Shown: piece after piece, positions 19,459 through 63,091 of the stretch
Numbering within the stretch: the stretch's first letter is position 1
How the letters are laid out: the number at the start of each line of letters is the position of its first letter
Assembly (NCBI RefSeq): GCF_012275535.1
Contig: NZ_JAAVTK010000002.1
Location: 436,208-500,207 of the forward strand
Source: Hymenobacter artigasi
GTDB lineage: Bacteria > Bacteroidota > Bacteroidia > Cytophagales > Hymenobacteraceae
Reading direction: 5' to 3'
DNA: 64,000 nucleotides
Made by a program: the position numbers and the translations under genes
Notes under the pieces: generated by a model
Databases searched by the model: none
What the model was told of the DNA's origin: nothing
What the model saw: only the letters and a program-made list of their open reading frames with translations

Positions 19459-19559
19459 GCGTCATGCAGCGCGCCACGAAGCATCTTGCCAGCAGTCACT
19501 AAACCAATCGAATGGATTAGTAGTGCGGTAAAGATGCTCCGCTGCGCGCTGCATGACGT
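19459..19559. repeat. Imperfect inverted repeat, GTCATGC-GCATCTTTACC family
   Basis: Arms 19459-19490 and 19527-19559 pair over about 32 bases with several mismatches. The arms match those at 29486-29580, so this is a second dispersed family. It fills the gap between ppx and the Ldh-family gene. Confidence 0.75.
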
Positions 19560-22945: not shown

Positions 22946-25333
22946 ATGCTGCACTTTTCCCCTCATTTTTCGTTCCGCAAACGATTCCGGTTTACGCTGG
23001 CCCTGGCTTTGGCCTTGCTGGGGGCCGGCAACCAGTCGGCCCACGCCCAAAAAGTAGTCATGCAGGGCTTCTGGTGGGATTTCTGGAATTCGAACTACCC
23101 CAACGGCTGGGCCAACTACCTCGCCGACCTGGCCCCGCGCCTCAAAACCATGGGCGTGGATGCTATCTGGATTCCGCCAACCATCAAAAACGCCAACCAG
23201 GGCAACGGCTACTCCCCCTTCGACAACTACGACCTGGGCGATAAGTGGCAAAAAGGCTTCCTGGCCACCCGCATGGGCACCAAGGACGAGCTGCTGCGCG
23301 CCGTAGCCGTGCTGCACGCCAATGGCGTAGAAGTAATTCAGGACCTGGTGCTGAACCACAACGACGGGGCAGGTTCCTCGACCGGTGCGGGCGGGCAGGA
23401 CCCCGCCGCCTGGGAAGACGGCAGCACCAGCAAGTACAAGAACTTCCGCTACGTGAGCTACGCCAAGCCCGTGACCGACGAGAGCGCCGCTGACTACTAT
23501 AGCCGCTCGGGCCGCTTCGCCAAAAACTGGCAGAACTTCAACCCCAACCCGGGCAACAACTCGACCTCGGGCGACTGGAACGCTACCTACTTCGGGCCGG
23601 ACATCAGCTACTACCCCGGCTCGAACGGCCAAAGCTCCAACGCCACCACCTACAACCCCGTGCAGGCCAGCGACTACATGCGCACCGGCAACCGCAACTG
23701 GCTGATTTGGTACAAGAAGCAAGTGGGCTTCGATGGCGTACGAATGGACGCGGTGAAGCATTTCCCCGACTTCGCTTCGGAAGACTTCCTGTATAATATG
23801 CAGAGCAACGCCGGCTGGGCCAGCGGCGGGGCCACCATGTACGCCGTGGGCGAATGGGTAGGCTCGTCGAGCCAGATGGACGGCTGGGTGGCCAACGTGA
23901 ACAACCGCTCGGGCACCTTCGATTTCTCGTTGCGCAACGGCCTGTACAACGTTGTGAGCCAGGGCGGCAGCTTCGACATCGGTACGCTGCCCAGCTACCA
24001 GCAGGGCACGCGGGTGGTGAACATCAACGGGACGTTTGTGCACCGCACGGTGCCCTTCGTGAACAATCACGACACGATGCGGCCCCAGGTAGACGCCAAC
24101 GGCAACTACACCGGCTGGAATACCGGCTCGGAGCTGGCCCCGCACATCGACCCGTTTGACCCGCGCCTCTCGGCCGTGTATGCTGCCGCGCTGGCCATGG
24201 ATGGCTCGCCGATGCTCTTTTTTGAGGACGTCTTCAACGTGGGCAACACCAGCAAGCGCTACGTGCACAGCCCCAAAAGCACCGTGGACCTGCCCACCCG
24301 CGACGACCTCGTGAACCTGGTGTGGTGCCACCAGAACCTGCACTTCAAGGACGGCGCGTATAAAGTGCGCTACCAGGCCGCCGACCACCTCGTGATTGAG
24401 CGCAGCACGAAGGCCATCATCGGCATCAACGACAACTTCACCACCTGGCAGAACAACACGGTGAGTTGCGATTTCGCGCCCGGTACCGTGCTGAAAGACT
24501 ATTCCGGGGCCAACGGCACTGCTACCGTCACGGTGAGCGGCTCGCAGACCGTGGCCATCAACACCCCGCCGTGCAACGGCACGGCCGCCAGCGGCCGCCG
24601 GGGCTACTCGGTGTGGGCCCCCACCAATGCCGTGACCGGCTACACCCGCCCGGCCCTGACCACCACCCAGGAGTGGGAGCTGGCCAACGACCTCGGCGAC
24701 TCCGACAGCCGCAGCCTGATGCAGGGCGGCGCGCTGCCAGCCGCCTCCACGGCCTACCGCACGGCCGGCCGCATTTATGTGGCCGCCAACAAAGGCGTTA
24801 CCTACACCCTTTTCCCCGTCGATGCCACGCGCAGCCTCACGGTGGCCGTGCTGAACAGCGCCGGCACCGTGGTGAGCAGCCAGACCGGCACCGGCACCCT
24901 CACGGGCACCTACACGCCTACCACCGAGGGCTGGTACACGCTGAAAGCCAAAAACGCCAGCACCGCCAACCCCAGCCAGGGTGCCTTCGTGAAGGCCACC
25001 TACACCGCCCCCACCGTGGTAACCGGCGCCATGACCGGCCGCCGCGATGCCGCCGTGCTGGCCAACACTAAGGAAGCACCCGCCGCCGAGGTACTGGTGT
25101 ACCCCAACCCCACCGCCGCCGACCGCATCGACGTGGTGATTACCGCCAACCGCGAGCAGGCCGCCACCGTGCAGCTGCACGACCTCACGGGCCGCCTGGT
25201 GCACCAGGAAACCGTGCGCCTCTACAACGGCACAAACGAGCTGCGCCTCGGCGTGAAAAAGACGCTGCCGGCCGGCATTTACCAGCTGAGCGTGCCCGAG
25301 TTTCATGTGAGCCAGAAGGTGGCGGTGCAGTAA
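22946..25333 (+). CDS. Secreted GH13 alpha-amylase with T9SS sorting domain
   Basis: A 795-residue secreted alpha-amylase that hydrolyses alpha-1,4 links in starch. A Sec signal peptide ends near AHA-Q (residues 34/35). The GH13 barrel starts at VVMQGFWWDFW. Its catalytic residues are the nucleophile Asp268 in GVRMDAVKHF, the acid/base Glu303 in VGEW and Asp376 in NNHDT. The last 80 residues (VLVYPNPTAADR to QKVAVQ) form a type IX secretion sorting domain, so the enzyme should cross the outer membrane and be released or held on the surface. It is a monocistronic gene with a terminator after it. Confidence 0.95.
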   Translation: MLHFSPHFSFRKRFRFTLALALALLGAGNQSAHAQKVVMQGFWWDFWNSNYPNGWANYLADLAPRLKTMGVDAIWIPPTIKNANQGNGYSPFDNYDLGDKWQKGFLATRMGTKDELLRAVAVLHANGVEVIQDLVLNHNDGAGSSTGAGGQDPAAWEDGSTSKYKNFRYVSYAKPVTDESAADYYSRSGRFAKNWQNFNPNPGNNSTSGDWNATYFGPDISYYPGSNGQSSNATTYNPVQASDYMRTGNRNWLIWYKKQVGFDGVRMDAVKHFPDFASEDFLYNMQSNAGWASGGATMYAVGEWVGSSSQMDGWVANVNNRSGTFDFSLRNGLYNVVSQGGSFDIGTLPSYQQGTRVVNINGTFVHRTVPFVNNHDTMRPQVDANGNYTGWNTGSELAPHIDPFDPRLSAVYAAALAMDGSPMLFFEDVFNVGNTSKRYVHSPKSTVDLPTRDDLVNLVWCHQNLHFKDGAYKVRYQAADHLVIERSTKAIIGINDNFTTWQNNTVSCDFAPGTVLKDYSGANGTATVTVSGSQTVAINTPPCNGTAASGRRGYSVWAPTNAVTGYTRPALTTTQEWELANDLGDSDSRSLMQGGALPAASTAYRTAGRIYVAANKGVTYTLFPVDATRSLTVAVLNSAGTVVSSQTGTGTLTGTYTPTTEGWYTLKAKNASTANPSQGAFVKATYTAPTVVTGAMTGRRDAAVLANTKEAPAAEVLVYPNPTAADRIDVVITANREQAATVQLHDLTGRLVHQETVRLYNGTNELRLGVKKTLPAGIYQLSVPEFHVSQKVAVQ

Positions 25334-25535: not shown

Positions 25536-27860
25536 CTAGAAAAACACGCTCACGTTCAGCTTCGCATAAAATGGCGTGCCGGGCGTGAAGTGCAACTCAT
25601 CGACGCCTTCGAGGGGTTCCCTTTTGGGCGTGTTAATCAGGCGGGTTTGGGTGGCGAACTGGGCTTGGTTCCATTCCACGTTCAGCAGGTTTTCGGCCGA
25701 AGCCCCGATCTGGAAGCGGGGCGTGGTGTAAGCCAGCACAGCATCGAGCAGGAAGTAGCCTTTGGCGCGGATGCTGCCGTCGTCATTAGCCGGGCGCGAG
25801 TCGATGTGGCGATAGCGCAGGCTGCCGCTCAGGCCTTTCGGGGCTTTGTAGGTGAGGCCGCCGGTGCTGGTGAAGGTGGGCGCAAGCGGAATATAGTTGG
25901 CCTTTTCGGGCGCGTCGAGCTGGCGGCCGTGGTTGTAGTTGAAGTCGCCATCGAGGAACAACCGGCTGCCCAGCTGGTAGCGCACCGACAAATCGAGGCC
26001 GTAGCGCTGGGTGGGGCCGGTGCTTTCCACCACGGCGTCATCGCCCACGTACACCAGCTCATCCTGCAAATGCAGGCTCCAGAGGGCGGCATTCACCACC
26101 AGACTGGGCAGCGGCTTAAACGTGCTGCCGATTTCGGAACCGATGGCGCGGGGCAGCACATTGGCATTCACGCCCTGAATCACGCCCCGCGCATCATTGG
26201 AGTGGAAGCCGAAGCCTGAGCGGGCAAACAGCTGCACGGCCGGCGACAGCTGGTAGTAGAGGTTGAGCTTGGGCGACACGCGGGCCCGGGCCACGCGGCC
26301 CGCCAGCGGCGCGGGTAGGCCGGTGCCCTCATCAGTCCGCCGGCCCCGGAAATCGAAGGCAAAAAAGTCGGCCCGCACCGCCGCGTTCACCGTGAGGCGG
26401 TCGGTCAGGGTCAGGGTTTCATCGAGGTACACGTTGATGTTCTGCTCAAACAGCCGGCCCGTGCTGATGGTATCGAGCGTTTCGCGCCGCACGGTATGGC
26501 GCAGGCCCAGGGTCGAGAAGTCGTTGCGGGTGCCCACGCCCAGCGTGCTGTGCAGCGAGCGGGCTCCGAGTTGGTCGTCGCGCTCATACGTGGCCGTGTA
26601 GCCGAACAGGTTCCGGTTGTCGGTCTGGTTAATTTCGTCGCCGTTTATCGAGTCGTGCAGGAAGAAAGTGAAGTTGGAAAACAGGCTGAAATCGTACTTC
26701 GAATAGTAGGCCTGCTGGCGCAGCACCGCATCGTGCGGCAGTGCGGTGGTGAGCACCACGCTGGCGTTGGTGCGGCTGGTGCGGCCGCCCTCGGTGGGGT
26801 CGATGCTGCCGTAGCGCGAGATAATGCCCTGCTCGATGCCGCGCTCCGGAATCTGCCCGCTGGCGTCCCAGTTCGAAGCAAAGTGCGAGCCCAGCACCGT
26901 AAGCGCCGTTTTGTCGGAGAGCTGGCCGGTGTATTTGGCCATGCCATTGAAGCGCTTGAAGTGCTGCGGCTGGTCGAAATACGAGTTGGTGAAGTTGTAC
27001 TCGGCCGCCACGTAGGCGCTTTCGGGGCGCTTGCTGAGCAGGTGGTGGTCCGGCCCCAGCAGGTCCAGCATCACCAGCGCCCGGCGGGTGGCAAACTGGC
27101 CCACTTCGAGCTTCACCTGGCTATGCTCCAGCCGGGTTTTGGTGCTGAACTCGCCCGCGCCGGCCGTGGCAAAATCGCCGAATCGGGCCGTATACGGCCC
27201 CTTGTACACCTTCAATTGCTCTACCGTTTCGGGAATTACGAAGTGGAAATCGGCGTAGCCCTGGCCGTGGGCGTGGCTCACCATGTTCACCGGCAGCCCG
27301 TCCACGCTCACCGCGAAATCGGTGCCGTGGTCGCAATCGAAGCCGCGCAGGAAAATCTGCTCGGCCTTGCCCCCGCCCGCGTGCTGCGCAATAAACAGGC
27401 CCGGCACGAGGCGCAACAAGTCCTGCGCCGAGTTCACGGGCCGCAGCAGCTGGTCGATATGCGAGATGGCGGCCAGGCTCTGGTTGGGGTCGCGGGGTTG
27501 GCTCACGGTCACCTCGGCCAGGCTAAGCGTGGTGGTGGCCACGCGCACGTTGAGGCGCTGGGTTTCGCCGGCTTTCAGCAGCACGGGCACGGCCTGGGAG
27601 CGGTAGCCGAGGGCCCCCACCCGCAACGTGTAGGTGGCGGGCTTGAGGTCGCTCAGCCGGAAGTTGCCCAGCGCATCGGTGGCCGTGCTGCCGGGCTGGC
27701 CTTGCAGGCCCACGCTCACGCCCGCCAGCGGCTGGCCCGAGAGTGAGTCGGCCACGGTGCCGCGCAGCGTGGCGGTGCCCTGCGCCTGCGCCGAACAGGT
27801 CAATAAAAACAGCCCGAGAACAAGCCCCCAGGCCGATAAAGCAGTAAGAAATTGTTTCAT
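25536..27860 (-). CDS. TonB-dependent receptor with a His-rich plug
   Basis: A 774-residue outer-membrane receptor. A signal peptide ends at AQAQ (about residue 27), and a carboxypeptidase-regulatory-like domain covers residues 30-120. The plug starts near SLAAISHIDQ, and the beta-barrel ends in the aromatic residue of KLNVSVFF. The plug holds the unusual stretch CDHGTDFAVSVDG followed by SHAHGQGYADFHF, rich in His and Asp, which suggests metal or metallophore recognition. The gene is last in a minus-strand array with a HupE-like membrane protein and two small Cys/His proteins. The substrate is not known; nickel, cobalt or copper would fit. Confidence 0.9.
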   Translation of the reverse strand: MKQFLTALSAWGLVLGLFLLTCSAQAQGTATLRGTVADSLSGQPLAGVSVGLQGQPGSTATDALGNFRLSDLKPATYTLRVGALGYRSQAVPVLLKAGETQRLNVRVATTTLSLAEVTVSQPRDPNQSLAAISHIDQLLRPVNSAQDLLRLVPGLFIAQHAGGGKAEQIFLRGFDCDHGTDFAVSVDGLPVNMVSHAHGQGYADFHFVIPETVEQLKVYKGPYTARFGDFATAGAGEFSTKTRLEHSQVKLEVGQFATRRALVMLDLLGPDHHLLSKRPESAYVAAEYNFTNSYFDQPQHFKRFNGMAKYTGQLSDKTALTVLGSHFASNWDASGQIPERGIEQGIISRYGSIDPTEGGRTSRTNASVVLTTALPHDAVLRQQAYYSKYDFSLFSNFTFFLHDSINGDEINQTDNRNLFGYTATYERDDQLGARSLHSTLGVGTRNDFSTLGLRHTVRRETLDTISTGRLFEQNINVYLDETLTLTDRLTVNAAVRADFFAFDFRGRRTDEGTGLPAPLAGRVARARVSPKLNLYYQLSPAVQLFARSGFGFHSNDARGVIQGVNANVLPRAIGSEIGSTFKPLPSLVVNAALWSLHLQDELVYVGDDAVVESTGPTQRYGLDLSVRYQLGSRLFLDGDFNYNHGRQLDAPEKANYIPLAPTFTSTGGLTYKAPKGLSGSLRYRHIDSRPANDDGSIRAKGYFLLDAVLAYTTPRFQIGASAENLLNVEWNQAQFATQTRLINTPKREPLEGVDELHFTPGTPFYAKLNVSVFF

Positions 27861-27946
27861 CTAGTCGGAAATCAAGGCGGCGGGCAGGCGGCACCGAAGC
27901 ACCGCCCACCAGCAGCTCGTTTGAATAAAAGGGAAGAATAGGCCGA

Positions 27947-28186
27947 CTAGAAATTGGCCTTGCTCATGCAGTTGGCGCGGCACTGCGCCCGGTGCTGGGC
28001 CTGCTGCCGCGCCAGGTGGCCGCGCTGCTGGTCGCGTAGGGCCGTCTCACTGATGGCTGGCAGTGTCCGGCTGTTGCCCGCATCGAACAACGAGCTGGCA
28101 ATGCGACCCGCCGAGGGCAGCTGCACGCGGGAGATAACACCCGTAGCGCCCGCTACGGGTTGGAAAGAATTGGCCCGGAAAATCAT
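27947..28186 (-). CDS. Small conserved-looking protein with C-terminal Cys pair
   Basis: A 79-residue product starting MIFRANSFQPVAG. No family recognised. It is rich in Arg, Gln and Ala and ends QCRANCMSKANF, with two cysteines three residues apart. Third codon positions are strongly G/C, as in neighbouring genes, which supports coding. The frame opens further upstream, but the ATG at 28186 is the better start. It lies 86 bases before the TonB receptor gene and after the 129-residue gene on the same strand. Confidence 0.6.
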   Translation of the reverse strand: MIFRANSFQPVAGATGVISRVQLPSAGRIASSLFDAGNSRTLPAISETALRDQQRGHLARQQAQHRAQCRANCMSKANF

Positions 28187-28332
28187 GGGATGAGGAGTTG
28201 AACGCGCCCGGGCACAGTAGCCCAGCAGGCAGCGTCGGATTATTGGATAAGAAGAAGCGGCACGACCAGCTAATGGCAGCCGTGCCCAGTGGCAACAGCT
28301 GGAATCGAACCCAACCGCAGCCACAACTCAAC

Positions 28333-28722
28333 TTATCCCCGCCGGGGCGGCAACTCAATCCGGCCCCGATAGCCCACCGGCACGACCGACTCGCGAGCCA
28401 TCTGCCGGACCACGGCAGCACTAAAAACCGGCCGGGCAAACACCACCCGCGTTTCCGCCAGGCAATGCGTATCCAAGCCTTTGAAGGAGCTGAGCAGCTG
28501 CTGCAAAGGCAGACGCTCGCCGTTTTTCTGCACCGTGTACTGCACGCCGTTGCAATCATCGAAACAGCCCAGACGCAGGGTGTGGCGCAGTTGGCAGTCG
28601 TGGCTGTGCACGTAGGCAAAGGGCCGGTCAATCACCCGCGCCGGGCGCTCCACGAGGCCCGCTCCCACTACCAGCAGGTAGTTGAGCAGCAGCAGCAGCG
28701 TGAGGTACGGGCGAAGGGCCAT
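28333..28722 (-). CDS. Exported small protein with a Cys/His cluster
   Basis: A 129-residue protein with an N-terminal hydrophobic segment (LTLLLLLNYLLVVGAGLV) that is either a signal peptide or one membrane helix. It is followed by the cluster HSHDCQLRHTLRLGCFDDC, which could bind a metal. No family recognised. It lies between the HupE-like gene and the 79-residue gene in one orientation, suggesting a shared role in metal handling. Confidence 0.7.
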   Translation of the reverse strand: MALRPYLTLLLLLNYLLVVGAGLVERPARVIDRPFAYVHSHDCQLRHTLRLGCFDDCNGVQYTVQKNGERLPLQQLLSSFKGLDTHCLAETRVVFARPVFSAAVVRQMARESVVPVGYRGRIELPPRRG

Positions 28723-28793
28723 GAGTGCGGGGTGGGCTTGCGCTATCTACGGCGAAAAGGCCCGGCAAGGGTGTACGAATTTCGATTTATTAT

Positions 28794-29465
28794 TCAGGCA
28801 AAAAACACCCGTTCTACGGTCCAGTAAGCCGCTATCAGGCCGATAACCACCGACACCGGAATCACAACCCGCTGCTTGTACCAGCTCTTATCGGCCGCCC
28901 AGCGCCCCACCAGCGCCCAGCACAGCAATATCACCGATACCTGGCCCAGCTCAACCCCCACGTTGAAGGAAATGAGCGAGCCGAAATAGTCTTTCTGCGG
29001 CAGCCCCAGCCCCGTGAGGGCGCTGGCGAAGCCCATGCCGTGCACCAGCCCAAAGCCGAACACAATCACCAGCCGCCACGGGTTAAGCTTATCGGTAATG
29101 ATGTTCTCGATGGCCACAAACAGGATGGACAGCGCGATAATCGGTTCAATAACCGACGACGGTGGCTGAATAAACCCATACATGGCCAGCCCCAGCGTGA
29201 TGGAATGCGCCACCGTAAACGCCGTGGCCTGCATGAGCACCGGCTTCAGGCGCGGCTCCAGAATGTAGAGGCTGATGATGAACAGAATGTGGTCGAACCC
29301 CAGCGGAATGATGTGCGTGAAGCCCAGCTGCAGGTAAGTCCAGAAAATCTCGGTGCGCGAGAGCTTGCTCAGGTCCGTGTTGAGGACGTGCGCGGCGGCC
29401 GGCACTGCCAGCAGCACCAGCAGCGGCAAAAACCGCAGGCTTCGCAACGGACGGAAGAGACTCAT
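28794..29465 (-). CDS. HupE/UreJ-like membrane protein
   Basis: A 223-residue integral membrane protein with about six helices after a possible signal segment ending AAAH. The first helix pair contains GFTHIIPLGFDHILFII, the His/Asp signature of the HupE/UreJ branch, whose members are nickel or cobalt permeases or related. FTVAHSITLG and GLVHGMGFASAL repeat the histidine-in-helix pattern. It is first of four genes that end with a TonB receptor. A metal-permease role in the inner membrane is the best guess. Confidence 0.85.
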   Translation of the reverse strand: MSLFRPLRSLRFLPLLVLLAVPAAAHVLNTDLSKLSRTEIFWTYLQLGFTHIIPLGFDHILFIISLYILEPRLKPVLMQATAFTVAHSITLGLAMYGFIQPPSSVIEPIIALSILFVAIENIITDKLNPWRLVIVFGFGLVHGMGFASALTGLGLPQKDYFGSLISFNVGVELGQVSVILLCWALVGRWAADKSWYKQRVVIPVSVVIGLIAAYWTVERVFFA

Positions 29466-29485
29466 AGGTAATAGGAAAACATAAG

Positions 29486-29580
29486 AACGTCATGCCGAGC
29501 GCAGCGAAGCATCTTTACCGCAGCAGTTACTGAATTGCGTCGCGCAGTAAAGATGCTTCGCTACGCTCTGCATGACGGTT
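29486..29580. repeat. Imperfect inverted repeat, GTCATGC-GCATCTTTACC family
   Basis: Arms 29486-29518 and 29547-29580 pair over about 33 bases with few mismatches. They match the arms at 19459-19559. The element fills the gap between the TPR gene and the HupE-like gene. Confidence 0.8.
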
Positions 29581-29582
29581 CA

Positions 29583-30917
29583 CTACCGCGCAGCCAGCGC
29601 CAACATTTTCTTGCCTTCCGCTTCTACTTCAGGATTGAGGTAAGGCGCAGTTTTCAGCGAGTTCTCAATCAACGCCTGGCCCTCTGCCGTCTTACCCATC
29701 TTACTCAGAATGAGTCCGGCACGGCCCAGCAGCACCGGGTTTTTCGAGCCCGTGCGGCGGGCTACCTGCATGTACTTTTGGGCTTCGGCGTATTGCCCGC
29801 GCTTGTAGAGCACCCAAGCCATGGTTTCGTTCACGTCGATGTTGTCGGGGCGGCGGGCGTACTCTATTTTGGCGTGCTCCAGTGCCTTGTCCAGCTCATT
29901 GGTTTTGAGGTAGGCGTAAGCCAGCTCGCGGTCGGCGTAGTGGCCCATCTCCTCATTGCTGTCGGCCTCCTTGGCGGCATTGGCCAGCATATCGATGGAC
30001 TCCTTCGCCATTTTATCAGCCTCATCTGGCTGGCCGTTCTGGCGGTACAGGTCGGTCAGCTCATCGGCAAAAGCATAGTCCTTCACCGTGATACGGGCCT
30101 CCTGATAAAGCTTGATGGCGCGCGGGTAATCCTTGCGCGCCGCCGCCATACGGCCCAGGCCAGCCAGCGCATACGCGTAGCCGGGGCGGGCCGCCAGGGC
30201 CATGAGGTAGTAGCCCCGGGCACGGGCCGTGTCGCCGCTCACTTCGTGGAGGTGGCCGAGGGCCACGCGGGTCCACTCGGTTTGCTCCAGGCCAATATAG
30301 CCAGCTTTGGCGGCCATGTCCATGGCCTGAATGGCCCCGGGCACGTCGCCGTAAATCTCGCGCAGGTAGCTTACCCGAGCGTAGGCCGGTAGGTCGGGGC
30401 GCACCTGGTTCATCTTGTCGGCCATTTTAATGGCTTCCTCATAGTGGCCCATTTCCACGTTGGCGTCGGTCAGCAGGCCATACACGAAGCCGCTGTTGGG
30501 GTTGAGCTTCTGGGCCTGCTCGGCAATGCCGAGGCCCTGGGCGAAGTGGTGCTGCGTGAGGCAGAGCGAGGCTTTGCAGCACAGGGCCTCAAAGTTTTCG
30601 GGCTCGGCGGCCAGCACCTGCTCCAGCAAGTTCATGGCGGCTCCGTCGTAATATGGGTGGTCGCCGGTCACGCGGCCCTCCTGCATGTAGGCCTGGGCCA
30701 GCAGCAGGCGGCTTTTCTGGTCCTTGGGGTTGGTGCGCAGCTTGGCCAGCAGGCCCTCAATGGCCGCCTTAGTGTTCAGCCATTCGTTGCCGACCGACAA
30801 GCTCCCGCGCCGGTCTTTCAACTCCGGCGTGCGAACCTCCGGCTTTTTAAAGAAGAAAATGGCGGCCGCCATTACGCCAAAAACAACTAATAGACTGGGG
30901 TATAAGTACTTTTTCAA
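29583..30917 (-). CDS. TPR-repeat protein, membrane anchored
   Basis: A 444-residue protein with one N-terminal membrane helix (YPSLLVVFGVMAAAIFF), then about nine to ten tetratricopeptide repeats, such as DYPRAIKLYQEARI and GQYAEAQKYMQVARRT. TPR arrays hold protein partners, so it is likely a periplasmic scaffold. It lies between the DUF4331 and HupE-like genes on the same strand, but a terminator separates it from the DUF4331 gene and an inverted repeat from the HupE-like gene. Function unknown. Confidence 0.85.
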   Translation of the reverse strand: MKKYLYPSLLVVFGVMAAAIFFFKKPEVRTPELKDRRGSLSVGNEWLNTKAAIEGLLAKLRTNPKDQKSRLLLAQAYMQEGRVTGDHPYYDGAAMNLLEQVLAAEPENFEALCCKASLCLTQHHFAQGLGIAEQAQKLNPNSGFVYGLLTDANVEMGHYEEAIKMADKMNQVRPDLPAYARVSYLREIYGDVPGAIQAMDMAAKAGYIGLEQTEWTRVALGHLHEVSGDTARARGYYLMALAARPGYAYALAGLGRMAAARKDYPRAIKLYQEARITVKDYAFADELTDLYRQNGQPDEADKMAKESIDMLANAAKEADSNEEMGHYADRELAYAYLKTNELDKALEHAKIEYARRPDNIDVNETMAWVLYKRGQYAEAQKYMQVARRTGSKNPVLLGRAGLILSKMGKTAEGQALIENSLKTAPYLNPEVEAEGKKMLALAAR

Positions 30918-30965
30918 GACAGAGAAAGATGACAGAGTGGAGGAGTAGCAGTAAAAATAACGCCT

Positions 30966-31014
30966 AAAAAAGAGCCGCCGCCAGTCCAGACCAGGACCAA
31001 ACGACGGCTCTTTT
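30966..31014 (-). terminator. Terminator of the DUF4331 gene
   Basis: AAAAGAGCCGTCG / CGGCGGCTCTTTT (minus-strand reading) gives a 13-bp stem with one wobble, a structured loop and six T residues. It separates the DUF4331 and TPR genes. Confidence 0.8.
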
Positions 31015-31034
31015 CAATTAGCTTCTAGTGCCGA

Positions 31035-33206
31035 TTACTGGCGCTCGATGCGTACCGATTGTACCACGGTGCTGCCGTTGTACAGCGTGGCGATGTACTG
31101 GCCGGGGGCCACATCGCGGCCGGGCGTCCAGTTCAGCTCATTGGCACCAGCACCGAAGGACTTGTCCTTGGCAATGGTAGCCACCTTGCGGCCGGTCACG
31201 TCGCTGATAACAACGCTCATCGTGCCTTTGGTAGGCAGTTCAAAGCGCAGCGTGGTGCGGTCGGCGAAAGGATTGGGATAAGCCTGAGCCACGGTCAGGT
31301 TAGGCGACAGGCCAAGGCCCGAAGCACGCTGAGCCAGAGCTATGCGCTGAGCATTGGTACCGCTCCAGGGCGTCTGCGAGTACGGGAACGCAGCTTTGAA
31401 CGTCGTATCGTTGGCAGTTACGCCAGCGTTGAAGTTCAGCACGTTGCCCAACTGTGGGGTAACGGGGTTGGCAGCGCCAGCAGCGTAGTCGTCGTACCAC
31501 AGGCCGATGGCGGCCAGTACCACACCACCCACGGCTTGCAGTTCGATGCGGGTCACGTCATCCTCGAGGCGACGACCGTTGGGGAAGCCATCCATGTTGG
31601 GGATGTTCTGCACAGCCGTGCTGCCGTTGTAGGTCGTGTTCGTCAGGCCCAGTACAGCAGCGGCCAGCAGGCCTTCCGAGCTAAAGTTAGCCGAGTTACG
31701 AGCCGTAGGCGGTACGGCCATGTTCAGGCGCAGCATGTCGCCACCGGGGTTGCTTGCCGAACCACCCACCAACAGGAAGTTGTTGATGAAAGGCTTGCCA
31801 GCGGCCAGCGGGTTGCCGTTTTTGCCGGTTGCCAACTGGTAAGGAGGGTAATTGGGTACACCAGTATGGAAAATCGGCAGGATATCGACTGAGCGCGGCT
31901 TGCCAGCACGCAGCAAGTACGCACCATAAGGAGCAGGACCAGTAGTGGCCAGCGCCGTGCCGTTCAGGGCAGCATTGCCAGCCAGGCCACTCAGACCAGC
32001 GGCTCCATTACGGAAGTCGAAGCCAGCAGCGGGCAAACCAGCGGTGCCGGCCAGCGACTTGCTCTGGATGCGCAGCGGGCCCAAGCCCGGTACAGCCTCA
32101 CCGTAGTAAGTCTGGCCGGCAGGCTTAGGAGCAGTAGTAGCCGAAGGGTTGTTATCGGCCATGTAAAGGCCCAGTTCCGGGTTCGACAGGTAGTCGTCCG
32201 TAGCGGCAACCTCAGCGTAAGGCGTGCCGGCGTTCCAGGCATCCTTAGCTCCGATGGGGTTGATAACTTCGTTCAGCAAAGGCATACCAATGCGCGATAC
32301 CTGCACATAGTTGCCCGATACTGTAGATGCAGCACCTGTGGCCGAAAGCACCCGGGTAGCGGGACGGCTGGCCGAAGCCCACACACCGATGATGTAGTTG
32401 GAATCGAGAATATTGGTTGCGCTGGTCAAGGCAGCAGTGCCCGTTTTGGCCAGTACCGTTACCGGGATTTGCAGTGCAATAGCGTGGGTGTTCTTACGAG
32501 CGAGGCCGTCGCGGGCTGCGCCGGGGGCACGAATACCGCCCAAGTCGAAGATGCCGCCCAAGTCAGCAAAGAACGGGTCGTCGGTAGCGCCGCAGAAGAT
32601 TTTGGTACCGTCCGGCAGCGTCATGATGGCGTTGTTCATCAACGTAGCATACGTGGCCGCCTGGTTCAAGCCAGCGGCACCATTGATGGAGCGCGGGCCG
32701 ATGTTGGGGGGAGGTACAATGCCCGTACCCACGGTTACGTTGGTGAAAGCACCACCGCCTACGCTCTTCTCGACGATGTAAGTCGTTTTCAGGTTCTGCA
32801 TACCCAGACGGATATTGAAGAACGTGCTGGGGTCCTGGTTGGCCCGGGTGAACGTGAAACGGTACGTGATGTCGTCGCCAGCCGTAGCCGAGTTGTTTTT
32901 CACGTGAATTTCGTAACGGATGTTCTCGCCGAACGTGTTGTAGTTAGGTCCGCCCTGGGGCAGCTCCAACGGAATGTAGTTGGCAATGATGGTCACGCTG
33001 GCGGCACCGTCGTTGTTAGGCGAATCGGGGCTACGGAAAGCGTATAGGTCGGTGTTGTCAGCCAACGGGTCGTCGGCGATAAGGGGAGCTTCGCGGTGGC
33101 TGGAGGCTTCCAGCGTGTTGTGCTGGCTGCTTAGGGCCACCACACCTCCTGCCGCGGTTGCGAGCAGAGCAGCCTGGAACAGAGGACGAGTAAGTAAATT
33201 TTTCAT
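31035..33206 (-). CDS. DUF4331 secreted protein with T9SS sorting domain
   Basis: A 723-residue exported protein. A signal peptide is followed by SSHREAPLIADDPLADNTDLYAF, the N-terminal signature of DUF4331 proteins, whose function is unknown. The body is rich in Gly, Asn and Thr. The last 80 residues (AQAYPNPFADRTTLRF to SVRIERQ) are a type IX secretion sorting domain, so the protein should reach the cell surface. It lies at the head of a minus-strand array with TPR, HupE-like, small Cys/His and TonB-receptor genes. Confidence 0.9.
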   Translation of the reverse strand: MKNLLTRPLFQAALLATAAGGVVALSSQHNTLEASSHREAPLIADDPLADNTDLYAFRSPDSPNNDGAASVTIIANYIPLELPQGGPNYNTFGENIRYEIHVKNNSATAGDDITYRFTFTRANQDPSTFFNIRLGMQNLKTTYIVEKSVGGGAFTNVTVGTGIVPPPNIGPRSINGAAGLNQAATYATLMNNAIMTLPDGTKIFCGATDDPFFADLGGIFDLGGIRAPGAARDGLARKNTHAIALQIPVTVLAKTGTAALTSATNILDSNYIIGVWASASRPATRVLSATGAASTVSGNYVQVSRIGMPLLNEVINPIGAKDAWNAGTPYAEVAATDDYLSNPELGLYMADNNPSATTAPKPAGQTYYGEAVPGLGPLRIQSKSLAGTAGLPAAGFDFRNGAAGLSGLAGNAALNGTALATTGPAPYGAYLLRAGKPRSVDILPIFHTGVPNYPPYQLATGKNGNPLAAGKPFINNFLLVGGSASNPGGDMLRLNMAVPPTARNSANFSSEGLLAAAVLGLTNTTYNGSTAVQNIPNMDGFPNGRRLEDDVTRIELQAVGGVVLAAIGLWYDDYAAGAANPVTPQLGNVLNFNAGVTANDTTFKAAFPYSQTPWSGTNAQRIALAQRASGLGLSPNLTVAQAYPNPFADRTTLRFELPTKGTMSVVISDVTGRKVATIAKDKSFGAGANELNWTPGRDVAPGQYIATLYNGSTVVQSVRIERQ

Positions 33207-33535: not shown

Positions 33536-35407
33536 ATGGCTACAGTATCAATCAATCTGGCCACCGGCAGCTTTCAGCAGGAAGAAATCATTGTCGGCAT
33601 CGACCTGGGCACCACCAATAGCCTTGTGGCCTACGTGCACCCCGAGAGCCGCCAGCCCGCTGCCATCAACGATTTGGGCCGGGGCACTATCGTGCCATCG
33701 GTGGTACACTTCCCCGCCGATGGGGCCGACCCCATCATCGGGGCTGCGGCGCGTGAGTACCTCCTCACCGACCCGCAGCGCACCATCTACTCCGTGAAGC
33801 GCCTGCTGGGCAAAAGCTACCGCGACCTGGGCCAGCACGCCAGCCAGCTCGGCTACAAGGTCATCGACGACAACTCCGAAGGCCTGGTAAAAATCCGGGT
33901 CGATGACCGGTTCTTCTCCCCCATCGAGCTGTCGGCCGATATCCTGCGGGAGCTGCGGGCCCGCGCCGAGCACGCCCTCAAAACCCCGGTAAACCGCGCC
34001 GTTATCACCGTGCCGGCTTATTTCAACGACTCGCAGCGCCAGGCCACGCGCGACGCGGGCCGCCTGGCTGGCCTCGAAGTGCTGCGCATTGTGAACGAGC
34101 CCACGGCGGCGGCCCTGGCCTACGGCATCGGCCTCGACCCCGACGAGGAGAAAACCGTGGCCGTGTACGACCTCGGCGGCGGCACCTTCGACATCAGCAT
34201 TCTGCGCATTCAGCAGGGCATTTTTGAGGTACTGAGCACCAACGGCGACACCTACCTCGGGGGCGACGACCTGGACCGCGCCGTGGTGGACCATTGGACG
34301 GCCACCTTTGGCCTTTCGGAGGCCTTCCACACCAACCCGCACCTGCAGCAGCAGCTACGCCTGGCCGCCGAGATAGCCAAGAAATACCTCAGCCAGCACG
34401 ACGATTTCACGACCCACCTCACCAATGAGGCCGGCCAGAACATTCCCGTCACGCTCACCCGCACGCAATTCGATGCGCTGATTCGCCCGCTGGTGGACCG
34501 CACCATTGCCGCCTGCCGCCAGGCCCTGGCCGATGCCAAGCTCGAAACCAAGCTGGATGCCGTCCTGCTGGTGGGCGGCTCCACCCGCGTGCCGCTGGTG
34601 TACGACGCCGTTTCGGAGTTCTTCGGCCAGCCGGCCAACAACTCGTTGAATCCGGATGAAGTAGTGGCGCTGGGTGCGGCCATTCAGGCCGATATCTTGG
34701 CCGGCAACCGGCGCGACGTGCTGCTGCTCGATGTAACGCCGCTCACGCTGGGCATTGAAACGCTGGGCGGCCTGCTGGACCCGATTATCCCGCGCAACTC
34801 GAAAATCCCGACCAAGGCCGGCCGCCAGTACACCACCAGCGTGGATGGGCAGGTGAATCTGAAAATTGCCGTGTACCAGGGCGAGCGCGACCTCGTGAGC
34901 CAGAACCGCAAGCTGGGCGAATTCACCCTGACCGGCATCCCGGCCATGCCCGCCGGCCTGCCCAAGGTCGATGTGAACTTCCTGCTGAACGCCGACGGCA
35001 TTCTGCAAGTGGAAGCCATCGAGCTACGTTCCAACACACGCCAGCAGGTGGAAATAAAGCCCCAGTACGGCCTCACCGATGAGCAGGTGGAGCAGATGCT
35101 GATGGACTCGCTGGTGAACGCCAAAGACGACGTAGCGGCGCGCCTGCTCATCGAGGCCCGCACCGCCGCCGAGCAGCTGTTGTACCAGGTAAATAACTTC
35201 ACCCGCAAAAACCGCCAGCACCTCACCGAAACCGAGCTGACTGCCACCGAAGCGCAGGTGGCCACCGTGCAGGCGGCGCTGGCTGGCACTGAGCGCGACC
35301 CCATTCTAAAAGCCATGGACGAGCTCGATGAACTAACCCGCCCTTATGCCGAGCGGGTGATGAACATTTCCATTCAGCAAGCCATGGCGGGCAAGAAAAT
35401 CGGCTAG
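33536..35407 (+). CDS. hscA: Hsp70-family chaperone HscA
   Basis: A 623-residue DnaK-type chaperone. The start MATVSINL with an extra segment before [15 protein letters not shown] is typical of HscA, which helps transfer Fe-S clusters from the scaffold IscU. ATPase motifs include the phosphate loops DLGTTNS and [13 protein letters not shown], plus [13 protein letters not shown]. The C-terminal substrate-binding half follows [17 protein letters not shown]. No iscU or hscB lies next to it here, so the role is assigned by sequence only. anmK follows 72 bases downstream. Confidence 0.88.
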
Positions 35408-61822: not shown

Positions 61823-63091
61823 TCAGGCGGGACGCCAAGTTGGGTCCGGGTCGTCGTGGGGTAACGAACCCTGCAGAGCCAAGAGTAAGAAGAATACCGC
61901 GAAGGCAAGACCAATCTGCGTTTCCAGCGTGTATTCGACCAAGAAGGACAAGGCAATACTAACGTACTGCGCCAATAGTAGTGGAGCGTGTTTCTTTCGG
62001 GCCCACCAAGCGGGGTAGAACAGACTCAGGCAGAATACCAGTAGCCCAATACTACCATAGGCCGCAAGGTTATACAAGTATTGGTTGTGGGGCATTATGT
62101 AAAAATCCGACGTGAGCTGGGGGTACAACGCTGCATAGCGCTTGGCCATCTCACCTTCCAGATTTGGTTTCCCTACTCCGGTCAGCTTGTTATCACGCCA
62201 CACCGCAAGCGCCGCCTGGTATGAATATACCCGAGCCGAAATAGAGAAGTTCTTGCCTTCGGAGCTCTCCTGTACTTTGCTCACATCTTCCTGGGTATTG
62301 TAGACCCGGTTGCGGAAAGTGGGAAAGGCAAAATAGCTTACTACTGGCAGCATTATCAGCACAGTGGCCAGCACGGCAGCTTTTCGCCATTGCTTTTTAC
62401 CAAATGCCAACCATAATACTGCTAGTCCACCCAAAGCATAGAAGGTCATTTCTCCGCTTCGCACGGCCAGCAAGTGTAAGAAAAGTACCATTCCTACGAT
62501 GGAAGCCTTTGCCCAGGTGCGCCACCGTGGGGCCACCGTATGATGAGCAACCAGCAGTACGACAGCGGCAATTGCCATGGTAATCATGATGCTGAACCGA
62601 ATGTGGTCTGGCTCCGTCGGCATCACTTTGGAGTGCATGTATGACTCGTTGATTTGCTGTGCATGCAGCAGGTAGTTGATTGTAGCTCCCGAAGCTGCCA
62701 GCACCGTCATGGCTATAAATATCCACCACAGCCCGCGTAGGTAGCGGCTGGGTAGTGGTGGCAACAACCAGAAGGAAAGCGGCAGCATCAGAAAAGGCAG
62801 TTGCATGCCCAGGTCAAACCGATATTCATCCATGTTTACCGCCTGGGTATGAATCCCAGCCAGTAAATGAAGCACGAATACCATTGCAATGCTTCCGAAT
62901 ACTGGCCACAACGAACGATTGGCAATTCGTTTATGCACCAAGGCGAAAACCACACTTGTCACCGCCAGCCCTCCCATGGCAATACCCAATGCTACCCTCA
63001 GCCAATTGACCAGGAAAATACTGATGATAATGCAGGCACAGAAGAAGAAAGCTGAACGATGTAGGCGCGCAATGGAAAATACAGAAAGCAT
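61823..63091 (-). CDS. O-antigen ligase/polymerase-like membrane protein inserted in the S10 cluster
   Basis: A 422-residue protein with about eleven membrane helices. The large periplasmic loop has ISARVYSYQAALAVWRDN and MPHNQYLYNLAAYGSIG, which match the Arg and His positions of the WaaL/Wzy family. It would join or polymerise glycan chains on the periplasmic side. The start at 63091 is preferred. It lies between rpsJ (with a terminator) and rplC (with a promoter) on the same strand. No promoter of its own is obvious, and read-through from rpsJ is possible. Confidence 0.85.
   Translation of the reverse strand: MLSVFSIARLHRSAFFFCACIIISIFLVNWLRVALGIAMGGLAVTSVVFALVHKRIANRSLWPVFGSIAMVFVLHLLAGIHTQAVNMDEYRFDLGMQLPFLMLPLSFWLLPPLPSRYLRGLWWIFIAMTVLAASGATINYLLHAQQINESYMHSKVMPTEPDHIRFSIMITMAIAAVVLLVAHHTVAPRWRTWAKASIVGMVLFLHLLAVRSGEMTFYALGGLAVLWLAFGKKQWRKAAVLATVLIMLPVVSYFAFPTFRNRVYNTQEDVSKVQESSEGKNFSISARVYSYQAALAVWRDNKLTGVGKPNLEGEMAKRYAALYPQLTSDFYIMPHNQYLYNLAAYGSIGLLVFCLSLFYPAWWARKKHAPLLLAQYVSIALSFLVEYTLETQIGLAFAVFFLLLALQGSLPHDDPDPTWRPA

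Follow-up and report, generated by a model that had tools for sequence, protein, structure and literature searches.

What a secreted protein of the DUF4331 family does for the cell, and whether the genes beside it work with it, is the question raised by a cluster in Hymenobacter artigasi. The cluster lies in a window of 64,000 nucleotides (NZ_JAAVTK010000002.1, positions 436,208-500,207, forward strand; coordinates given here are positions in that window). Read from 33206 to 25536 on the minus strand, it encodes a DUF4331 protein, a tetratricopeptide repeat (TPR) protein, a HupE/UreJ-2 permease, two small Cys/His proteins of 129 and 79 residues, and a TonB-dependent receptor. The first-pass annotation had read these six same-direction genes as a possible metal uptake system. 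In outline it was right: all six open reading frames (ORFs) are there, the module is real and widely conserved, and its role is most likely metal acquisition. A search of open-licence PubMed Central papers found none that names DUF4331 or its profile PF14224, and none in which the module is described.

The family assignments hold for the four larger proteins. The DUF4331 gene (31035..33206, minus strand) codes for 723 residues: a signal peptide, a predicted mature start SSHREAP, a beta-rich core and a C-terminal sorting domain of the type IX secretion system (T9SS). PF14224 is matched over profile positions 1-421 of 421 (1.7e-119; 400 bits against a gathering cut-off of 27). The T9SS type A tail scores 31.5 bits with TIGR04183 (cut-off 23) and 23.4 bits with PF18962, below the 27 bits of that profile. 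The TPR protein (29583..30917, minus strand) has 444 residues, a TTG start and an N-terminal hydrophobic anchor ahead of its TPR repeats. The permease (28794..29465, minus strand; 223 residues) matches HupE_UreJ_2 (PF13795) at 2.6e-47, with 160.8 bits against a cut-off of 24.5. The receptor (25536..27860, minus strand; 774 residues) is made up of CarboxypepD_reg, plug (PF07715) and TonB barrel (PF00593) domains, the last two above cut-off.

Within the genus, the order DUF4331-TPR-HupE-129-residue protein-receptor is found in the window and in 18 of 24 loci taken from 23 relatives, so the cluster is not a matter of chance. Counted by genome (n=25), DUF4331 occurs in 22, being absent from G010, G018 and G021, and the five-gene order in 19. 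The departures from that order vary. The small protein and the receptor are missing from one DUF4331 locus (G015), a contig end interrupts another (G019), and a third reads receptor-DUF4331-DUF4331, with neither TPR nor HupE in the stretch taken (G012). The DUF4331 frame of G020 contains an internal stop. Two loci come from other families of the same order, one arranged receptor-DUF4331-TPR-HupE (L041) and the other DUF4331-DUF4331-TPR-receptor (L039).

Across the Bacteroidota, 48 of the 395 genomes sampled contain DUF4331. A split form, with two short ORFs side by side, occurs in 18 loci (L101-L118). Neighbours within 6 kb were counted in 36 loci from that phylum sample and in a named set of 80 loci. 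The named loci were selected by the peptide pattern ASSHREAPx[IL] and say nothing about how well that motif is conserved. Loci L031-L118 supplied the profiles for TPR, receptor, HupE and sigma factor, so that counts there are partly by construction; apart from five repeats (L132, L134, L136, L153 and L179) the named set is independent of them. TPR, receptor and HupE genes were found near DUF4331 in 33, 17 and 5 of the 36 phylum-sample loci, and in 63, 39 and 28 of the 80 named loci. The corresponding counts were 43, 28 and 18 for named loci with at least 6 kb on both sides (n=45), and 55, 32 and 20 after Hymenobacter-titled loci were removed (n=69). DUF4331 and TPR together have a receptor or HupE nearby in 44 of the 80 named and 20 of the 36 phylum-sample loci. 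The HupE_UreJ_2 family itself is present in 115 of the 395 genomes, in 32 of 48 with DUF4331 versus 83 of 347 others (kinship ignored); in 10 of the 32 genomes that have both, the two genes are no more than about 10 kb apart. The most constant core is DUF4331 with the TPR protein, often joined by a nickel/cobalt-type permease, and HupE is a facultative member, contrary to the first reading. The TonB receptor is an addition in many Bacteroidota, and the two small proteins are local additions.

The small proteins had been put forward as general metal ligands, a role that their distribution does not bear out. The 129-residue protein (28333..28722, minus strand), with an N-terminal hydrophobic stretch and the pattern YVHSxxCQ...CFDxCNG, is confined to the genus among the loci compared, save for one weak Dyadobacter match. 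The 79-residue ORF (27947..28186, minus strand), with the C-terminal end HRAQCRANCMSKANF, keeps its start, stop and C-terminus in three close relatives only. Neither protein matched a family in the profile scan.

The core extends beyond the phylum. A tblastn search detected DUF4331 in 33 plasmid records, including those of Proteobacteria, Cyanobacteria and Actinobacteria, and 22 of these loci were studied, 20 of them from other phyla. In 13 of the 20, a TPR gene and either HupE_UreJ_2 or NicO stand next to DUF4331; one has the TPR gene only, and six have neither. HupE_UreJ_2 accompanies DUF4331-TPR in 8 of 13 proteobacterial loci (Marinobacter, Pseudoalteromonas, Comamonadaceae, Variovorax, two Paraburkholderia and two Lichenicola). 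NicO does so in Nostoc and in 4 of 6 actinobacterial loci (two Streptomycetaceae records, Embleya and Nonomuraea). Such exchange between two nickel/cobalt permease families favours a metal as the substrate. A Miltoncostaea plasmid has the TPR gene without a permease, as do two Adhaeribacter plasmids (Bacteroidota), where the receptor is divergent. The plasmid-locus profiles include TPR or permease sequences from nine of the plasmid loci, whose matches are therefore built in; the positives independent of the profiles are L209, L210, L212, L213 and L214, and one profile member, the Lichenicola TPR protein, has no Pfam match of its own. Co-occurrence in other genomes had been set beforehand as a check on the uptake proposal, and it is found in the genus, in the phylum and on these plasmids.

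DUF4331 appears to be sent outside the cell by different exporters in different lineages, judging from gene context and the T9SS tail. In all five Rhodobacterales records (Paracoccus, Jannaschia, two Sulfitobacter and Marinovum; L124, L215, L216, L218 and L220) the gene lies inside a type II secretion cluster, with an A24 prepilin peptidase shown in four of the five, which suggests that DUF4331 is type II secretion cargo in this order. A class F sortase gene stands beside DUF4331 in two actinomycete loci. In the window protein, the folded tail matches the T9SS C-terminal domain of mirolase (Z 10.0, root-mean-square deviation (rmsd) 2.1, 77 aligned); unrelated Ig-like domains score equally well or higher (TEP1r, Z 11.3).

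The N-terminus of DUF4331 is where a metal site may be sought. Of the histidines in the window protein, only His37 is invariant in an alignment of 12 sequences drawn from four phyla; Asp50, Asp53, Glu313, Asp549 and Asp550 are invariant as well. In 22 of 23 plasmid-borne copies the signal-like stretch leads into a small residue and then [S/A][S/D]H, and the N-halves of the split proteins have [A/G]DH at the corresponding place (18 of 18). Position -1 is Ala in 53, Ser in 5 and Gly in 1 of 59 copies (L119-L128 and the window included). The copies in these counts come from loci outside the ASSHREAPx[IL] selection and were picked by regular expression. If signal peptidase cuts before SSH, the histidine becomes residue 3 of the mature protein, giving an x-x-His layout. 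N-termini of this x-x-His kind are copper- and nickel-binding sites. In Hymenobacter the cleavage site may instead precede Gln28, seven residues upstream, which would abolish that layout; the tail is modelled with pLDDT below 50.

In the model of the core (pTM 0.91) a mainly helical half follows a beta-rich one. With the full-length model, fold matches were confined to the T9SS tail, and the core was refolded separately. It gave no Foldseek match at E<=0.001 and no convincing PDB match; the best structural match, to the starch-binding module CBM74 (VIA-align; Z 7.9, rmsd 4.8, 203 aligned), is too weak for reliance and may reflect a common arrangement. No solved structure was found among sequence relatives of DUF4331 or HupE.

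The TPR protein and the permease each contribute a conserved histidine. His123 of the TPR protein is invariant in 103 of 103 aligned rows (102 of 102 distinct), the alignment consisting of 96 hits above 330 bits and seven named sequences. The permease is predicted to be cut between AAA and HVLNTD, leaving His as residue 1, and [A/S]-His follows the signal in 51 of 55 copies (47 of 51 distinct), with cleavage assigned by regular expression. We take the canonical motifs of HupE nickel permeases to be HX5DH and FHGX[AV]HGXE; the window permease has HIIPLGFDH, one residue longer, and FGLVHGMGF. The closest described proteins are the HupE/UreJ-2 anglerases Ang-1 and Ang-2, which belong to the same PF13795 family and likewise have a predicted His directly after signal cleavage (PMC12537917). 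In the published pair an angler domain precedes the permease, with the linker at residues 175-184, whereas in the window permease about 18 residues separate His1 from the start of the PF13795 match, leaving no folded domain before the permease. The main text of that paper does not contain the word "tetratricopeptide", and its sections compared here do not mention DUF4331. Four proteobacterial cluster permeases have 366-406 residues, with a long N-terminal domain ahead of the permease part. In two of the four exceptions to His1, a separate DUF6702 gene precedes HupE; one member of the DUF6702 family is reported to bind nickel with a pM Kd (PMC12537917). DUF6702 was seen as its own gene before HupE_UreJ_2 at 11884-12947 of L100 and 7446-8521 of L090; this may be, in split form, the N-terminal domain that is fused to the permease in Proteobacteria.

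The receptor carries two conserved plug motifs, DHGTD...SHAHGQGYADFH in the window. DHGTD is present in 78 of 80 receptors (77 distinct), and the remaining two are fragments. The preceding residue is Cys in 17 of the 78, so that the Cys of CDHGTD, once proposed as a metal ligand, drops out as a general one. The histidines of SHAHGQGYADxH are nearly constant: in 77 readable sequences, the two of SHxHGxG were counted 72 and 77 times and the one of xDxH 76 times. Relatives of the receptor were found in 49 plasmid records (E<=1e-30, all below 60% identity), and the neighbourhoods of seven proteobacterial ones, 33-35% identical, were examined. For example, nikR lies directly before the relatives in Comamonadaceae OTU4NAUVB1 and Methylomagnum, and nikR and hoxN adjoin that of Paraburkholderia acidisoli. 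On plasmid pHG1 of Cupriavidus necator, hoxN is about 4 kb and a NiFe hydrogenase about 7-10 kb away, and in Methylorubrum extorquens CM4 cobalamin genes are about 3 kb away. In the receptor tree one DUF4331-linked receptor (L097) falls inside the proteobacterial group with bootstrap 100. A side observation concerns a Hymenobacter GOD-10R plasmid (L222: 3142-12669), where a 49% identical receptor stands beside HupE/UreJ and three DUF3500 genes, with no DUF4331 in the stretch shown, as if it were a sister system with DUF3500 in the place of DUF4331.

Several known systems resemble parts of this arrangement. TonB-dependent nickel transporters include FecA3, FrpB4, CntO, Bll6948, Daro_3944, Rgel01002199 and NikH (listed in PMC11247825). 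The window receptor shares the TonB-dependent type with them, and some of its proteobacterial relatives stand beside nikR and hoxN. The window cluster itself has no nikR, and in the plug the window receptor reads xDxHF where the nikR-linked relatives compared read xDLN. In hemophore and chalkophore systems (HasA/HasR, methanobactin) a secreted binder is paired with a dedicated TonB receptor. The pairing is the likeness; the protein families differ. The SusC/SusD glycan importers of Bacteroidota also have a CarboxypepD_reg domain, a TonB receptor and a surface partner. The window receptor scores 54.8 of the 368 bits required by the SusC model, however, and its cluster includes a HupE permease.

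The glycan comparison bears on a different account, in which DUF4331 and the TPR protein form a surface or stress module for another ligand, such as a glycan, and the receptor and permease are loosely attached neighbours. The TPR protein is indeed the sole near-constant partner of DUF4331, the CBM74 match points faintly the same way, and a terminator uncouples DUF4331 from the genes downstream. That account is nevertheless unlikely, since HupE or NicO stands beside DUF4331-TPR in Bacteroidota and three other phyla, no SusD was found among the nine window ORFs scanned, which include the neighbours of the receptor, and the relatives of the receptor lie near nickel genes.

The terminator in question, or attenuator, is a strong hairpin with a U-run just 3' of DUF4331 (30967..31015, minus strand; -31.7 kcal/mol, z -5.5). 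Together with a palindrome between the TPR and HupE genes, it makes co-transcription of all six genes doubtful, and a single six-gene transcript is not supported. Loci L049, L050 and L051 retain the hairpin with bases changed. Counted without a shuffled control, hairpins ending in a T-rich tail stand behind 15 of 28 DUF4331 copies in L031-L054; the figure is 11 of 21 for L083-L118 and 46 of 123 for the named set. The structure fits high expression of a surface protein with lower read-through into the genes downstream.

Taken together, the DUF4331 x-x-His start, the permease His1 and the nikR-, hoxN- or cobalamin-linked relatives of the receptor point to metal handling, and metal import by the cluster is likely on these sequence grounds. 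We hold with moderate confidence that the whole cluster is a transition-metal acquisition route running from DUF4331 through the receptor and the TPR protein to the permease. DUF4331 would be exported to the cell surface by the T9SS and would bind a divalent metal there, most likely nickel or copper, perhaps through its exposed N-terminal x-x-His tail. The metal, free or DUF4331-borne, would then pass through the His/Asp-rich plug of the receptor into the periplasm, and the membrane-anchored TPR protein may act as scaffold or hand-over factor with its one invariant histidine. The permease would move the metal into the cytoplasm. Gene content, conservation, families and motifs are what was observed; metal binding, direction, order of hand-over and the metal itself are read from them. 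The first proposal of an import path thus stands on the permease families, the N-terminal histidine motifs and the receptor relatives, and no longer on the small proteins or the Cys of CDHGTD. The proposal gives DUF4331 a testable role, that of a surface protein gathering trace metal, within a conserved module where a TPR protein and often a metal permease accompany it. The N-terminal-histidine permeases described not long ago would become part of a possible multi-protein relay, with His3 of mature DUF4331, TPR His123, permease His1 and the plug motifs DHGTD and HAHGQGY as candidate residues. A wider proposal is held more tentatively. DUF4331 could be a new kind of protein metallophore, secreted and beta-rich with an x-x-His metal tail, that supplies nickel or copper to the TPR-permease machine present in at least four phyla. 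Export would rely on T9SS in Bacteroidota, many of which also have the TonB receptor, on type II secretion in Rhodobacterales and on a class F sortase in some actinomycetes.

A number of observations weigh against the acquisition route. HupE is near DUF4331 in just 20 of the 69 named loci left once Hymenobacter-titled ones are taken out, and in 5 of the 22 plasmid loci DUF4331 lies in a type II secretion cluster with no TPR or permease gene within the stretch taken. The receptor relatives are not uniform: a zinc ABC transporter and another receptor are also near that of Methylomagnum, an iron ABC transporter is on the opposite side in M. extorquens CM4, and the neighbourhood tables of Methylobacterium XJLW and Indioceanicola list no metal gene. 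In a tree with few outgroups, the cluster receptors join the proteobacterial relatives with a bootstrap of 73, a weak support. The search for upstream metal-responsive sites gave nothing: no Rfam match to a metal-responsive RNA or riboswitch reached the gathering score in the window, and no 9-mer was shared by more than 6 of 24 upstream regions (the window and 23 relatives). A Bacteroidota promoter pattern had no match in the same 24 regions, the upstream region of the window has no exact palindrome with arms of 6-8, and a sigma-70-like scan was uninformative (6 matches, 2.6 expected). A scan for NikR half-sites with up to two mismatches found none near the cluster and one distant, at 62639; it had no power, being blank also in the nikR-bearing L223 and L224.

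The distribution of nickel enzymes also weighs against the route, at least for nickel. Urease and NiFe hydrogenase are both missing from nine genus genomes with DUF4331 (G001, G002, G004, G007, G008, G012, G015, G016 and G017), seven of which keep the five-gene order. Nor does DUF4331 track urease in the genus (n=25): it occurs in 13 of 15 genomes with the enzyme and 9 of 10 without, and G018 and G021 have urease and no DUF4331. In favour of nickel, beside the receptor relatives and the permease families, the window genome itself has a urease gene about 350 kb away on the same contig. No nickel superoxide dismutase was found, in a search without a positive control. Nickel was rejected as the settled metal on account of the DUF4331 genomes without nickel enzymes. 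Cobalt for corrin synthesis fared no better: CobN is absent from the window genome and present in G012, G021 and G036, a further point against the route in that form. Besides these nickel-enzyme-free genomes, the published copper preference of HupE-linked domains keeps copper a candidate beside nickel.

That preference raises the possibility, a minority one in our estimate, that the cargo of the same route is Cu(II), bound first by the x-x-His tail and the His1 sites. Aerobic members need copper for cytochrome oxidase, and an x-x-His N-terminus would serve copper as well as nickel. The nine genomes without urease or NiFe hydrogenase and the blank dismutase search are consistent with it, as are the affinities of HupE-linked anglerase domains, which are reported to bind copper at 62-74 nM, while one binds nickel at 220 nM (PMC12537917). 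Against copper, five of the seven receptor relatives have nickel or cobalamin genes nearby, while the plasmid gene tables, which are incomplete, show no annotated copper gene close to any of the seven; NicO also takes the place of HupE in Nostoc and four actinobacterial loci.

The same permeases could in principle work outwards. The NicO family includes exporters such as RcnA. In a metal defence system DUF4331 would sequester excess metal outside the cell, a NicO- or HupE-type permease would export it, and the TPR protein would be an envelope scaffold. A stress-response-like layout accords with this: a gene for an extracytoplasmic function (ECF) sigma factor is near DUF4331 in 15 of 36 phylum-sample and 14 of 80 named loci, and an anti-sigma gene in 12 and 11, those checked by Pfam (one phylum-sample, one Pseudoalteromonas) both being RskA-type. 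We think defence improbable all the same, as TonB receptors import, and HupE/UreJ members are reported to mediate nickel import (PMC11247825, PMC2667541).

Some features of the surroundings may be added. ECF sigma and anti-sigma genes adjoin DUF4331 clusters in both Bacteroidota and Pseudoalteromonas (for example, L103: 7393-8708 and L122: 6594-7810), and glutathione peroxidase and truncated-haemoglobin-like genes stand beside some clusters (L103: 14033-14620, L091: 7684-8151). In the window the cluster is flanked by a divergent Hsp70 gene (33536-35407) and a convergent alpha-amylase gene (22946-25333). The palindrome between the TPR and HupE genes (29490..29575, unstranded; -59.2 kcal/mol) is long and near-perfect. 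A related arm is found at 19530-19546 of the same window, and the palindrome is probably a dispersed repeat element that lies outside the system.

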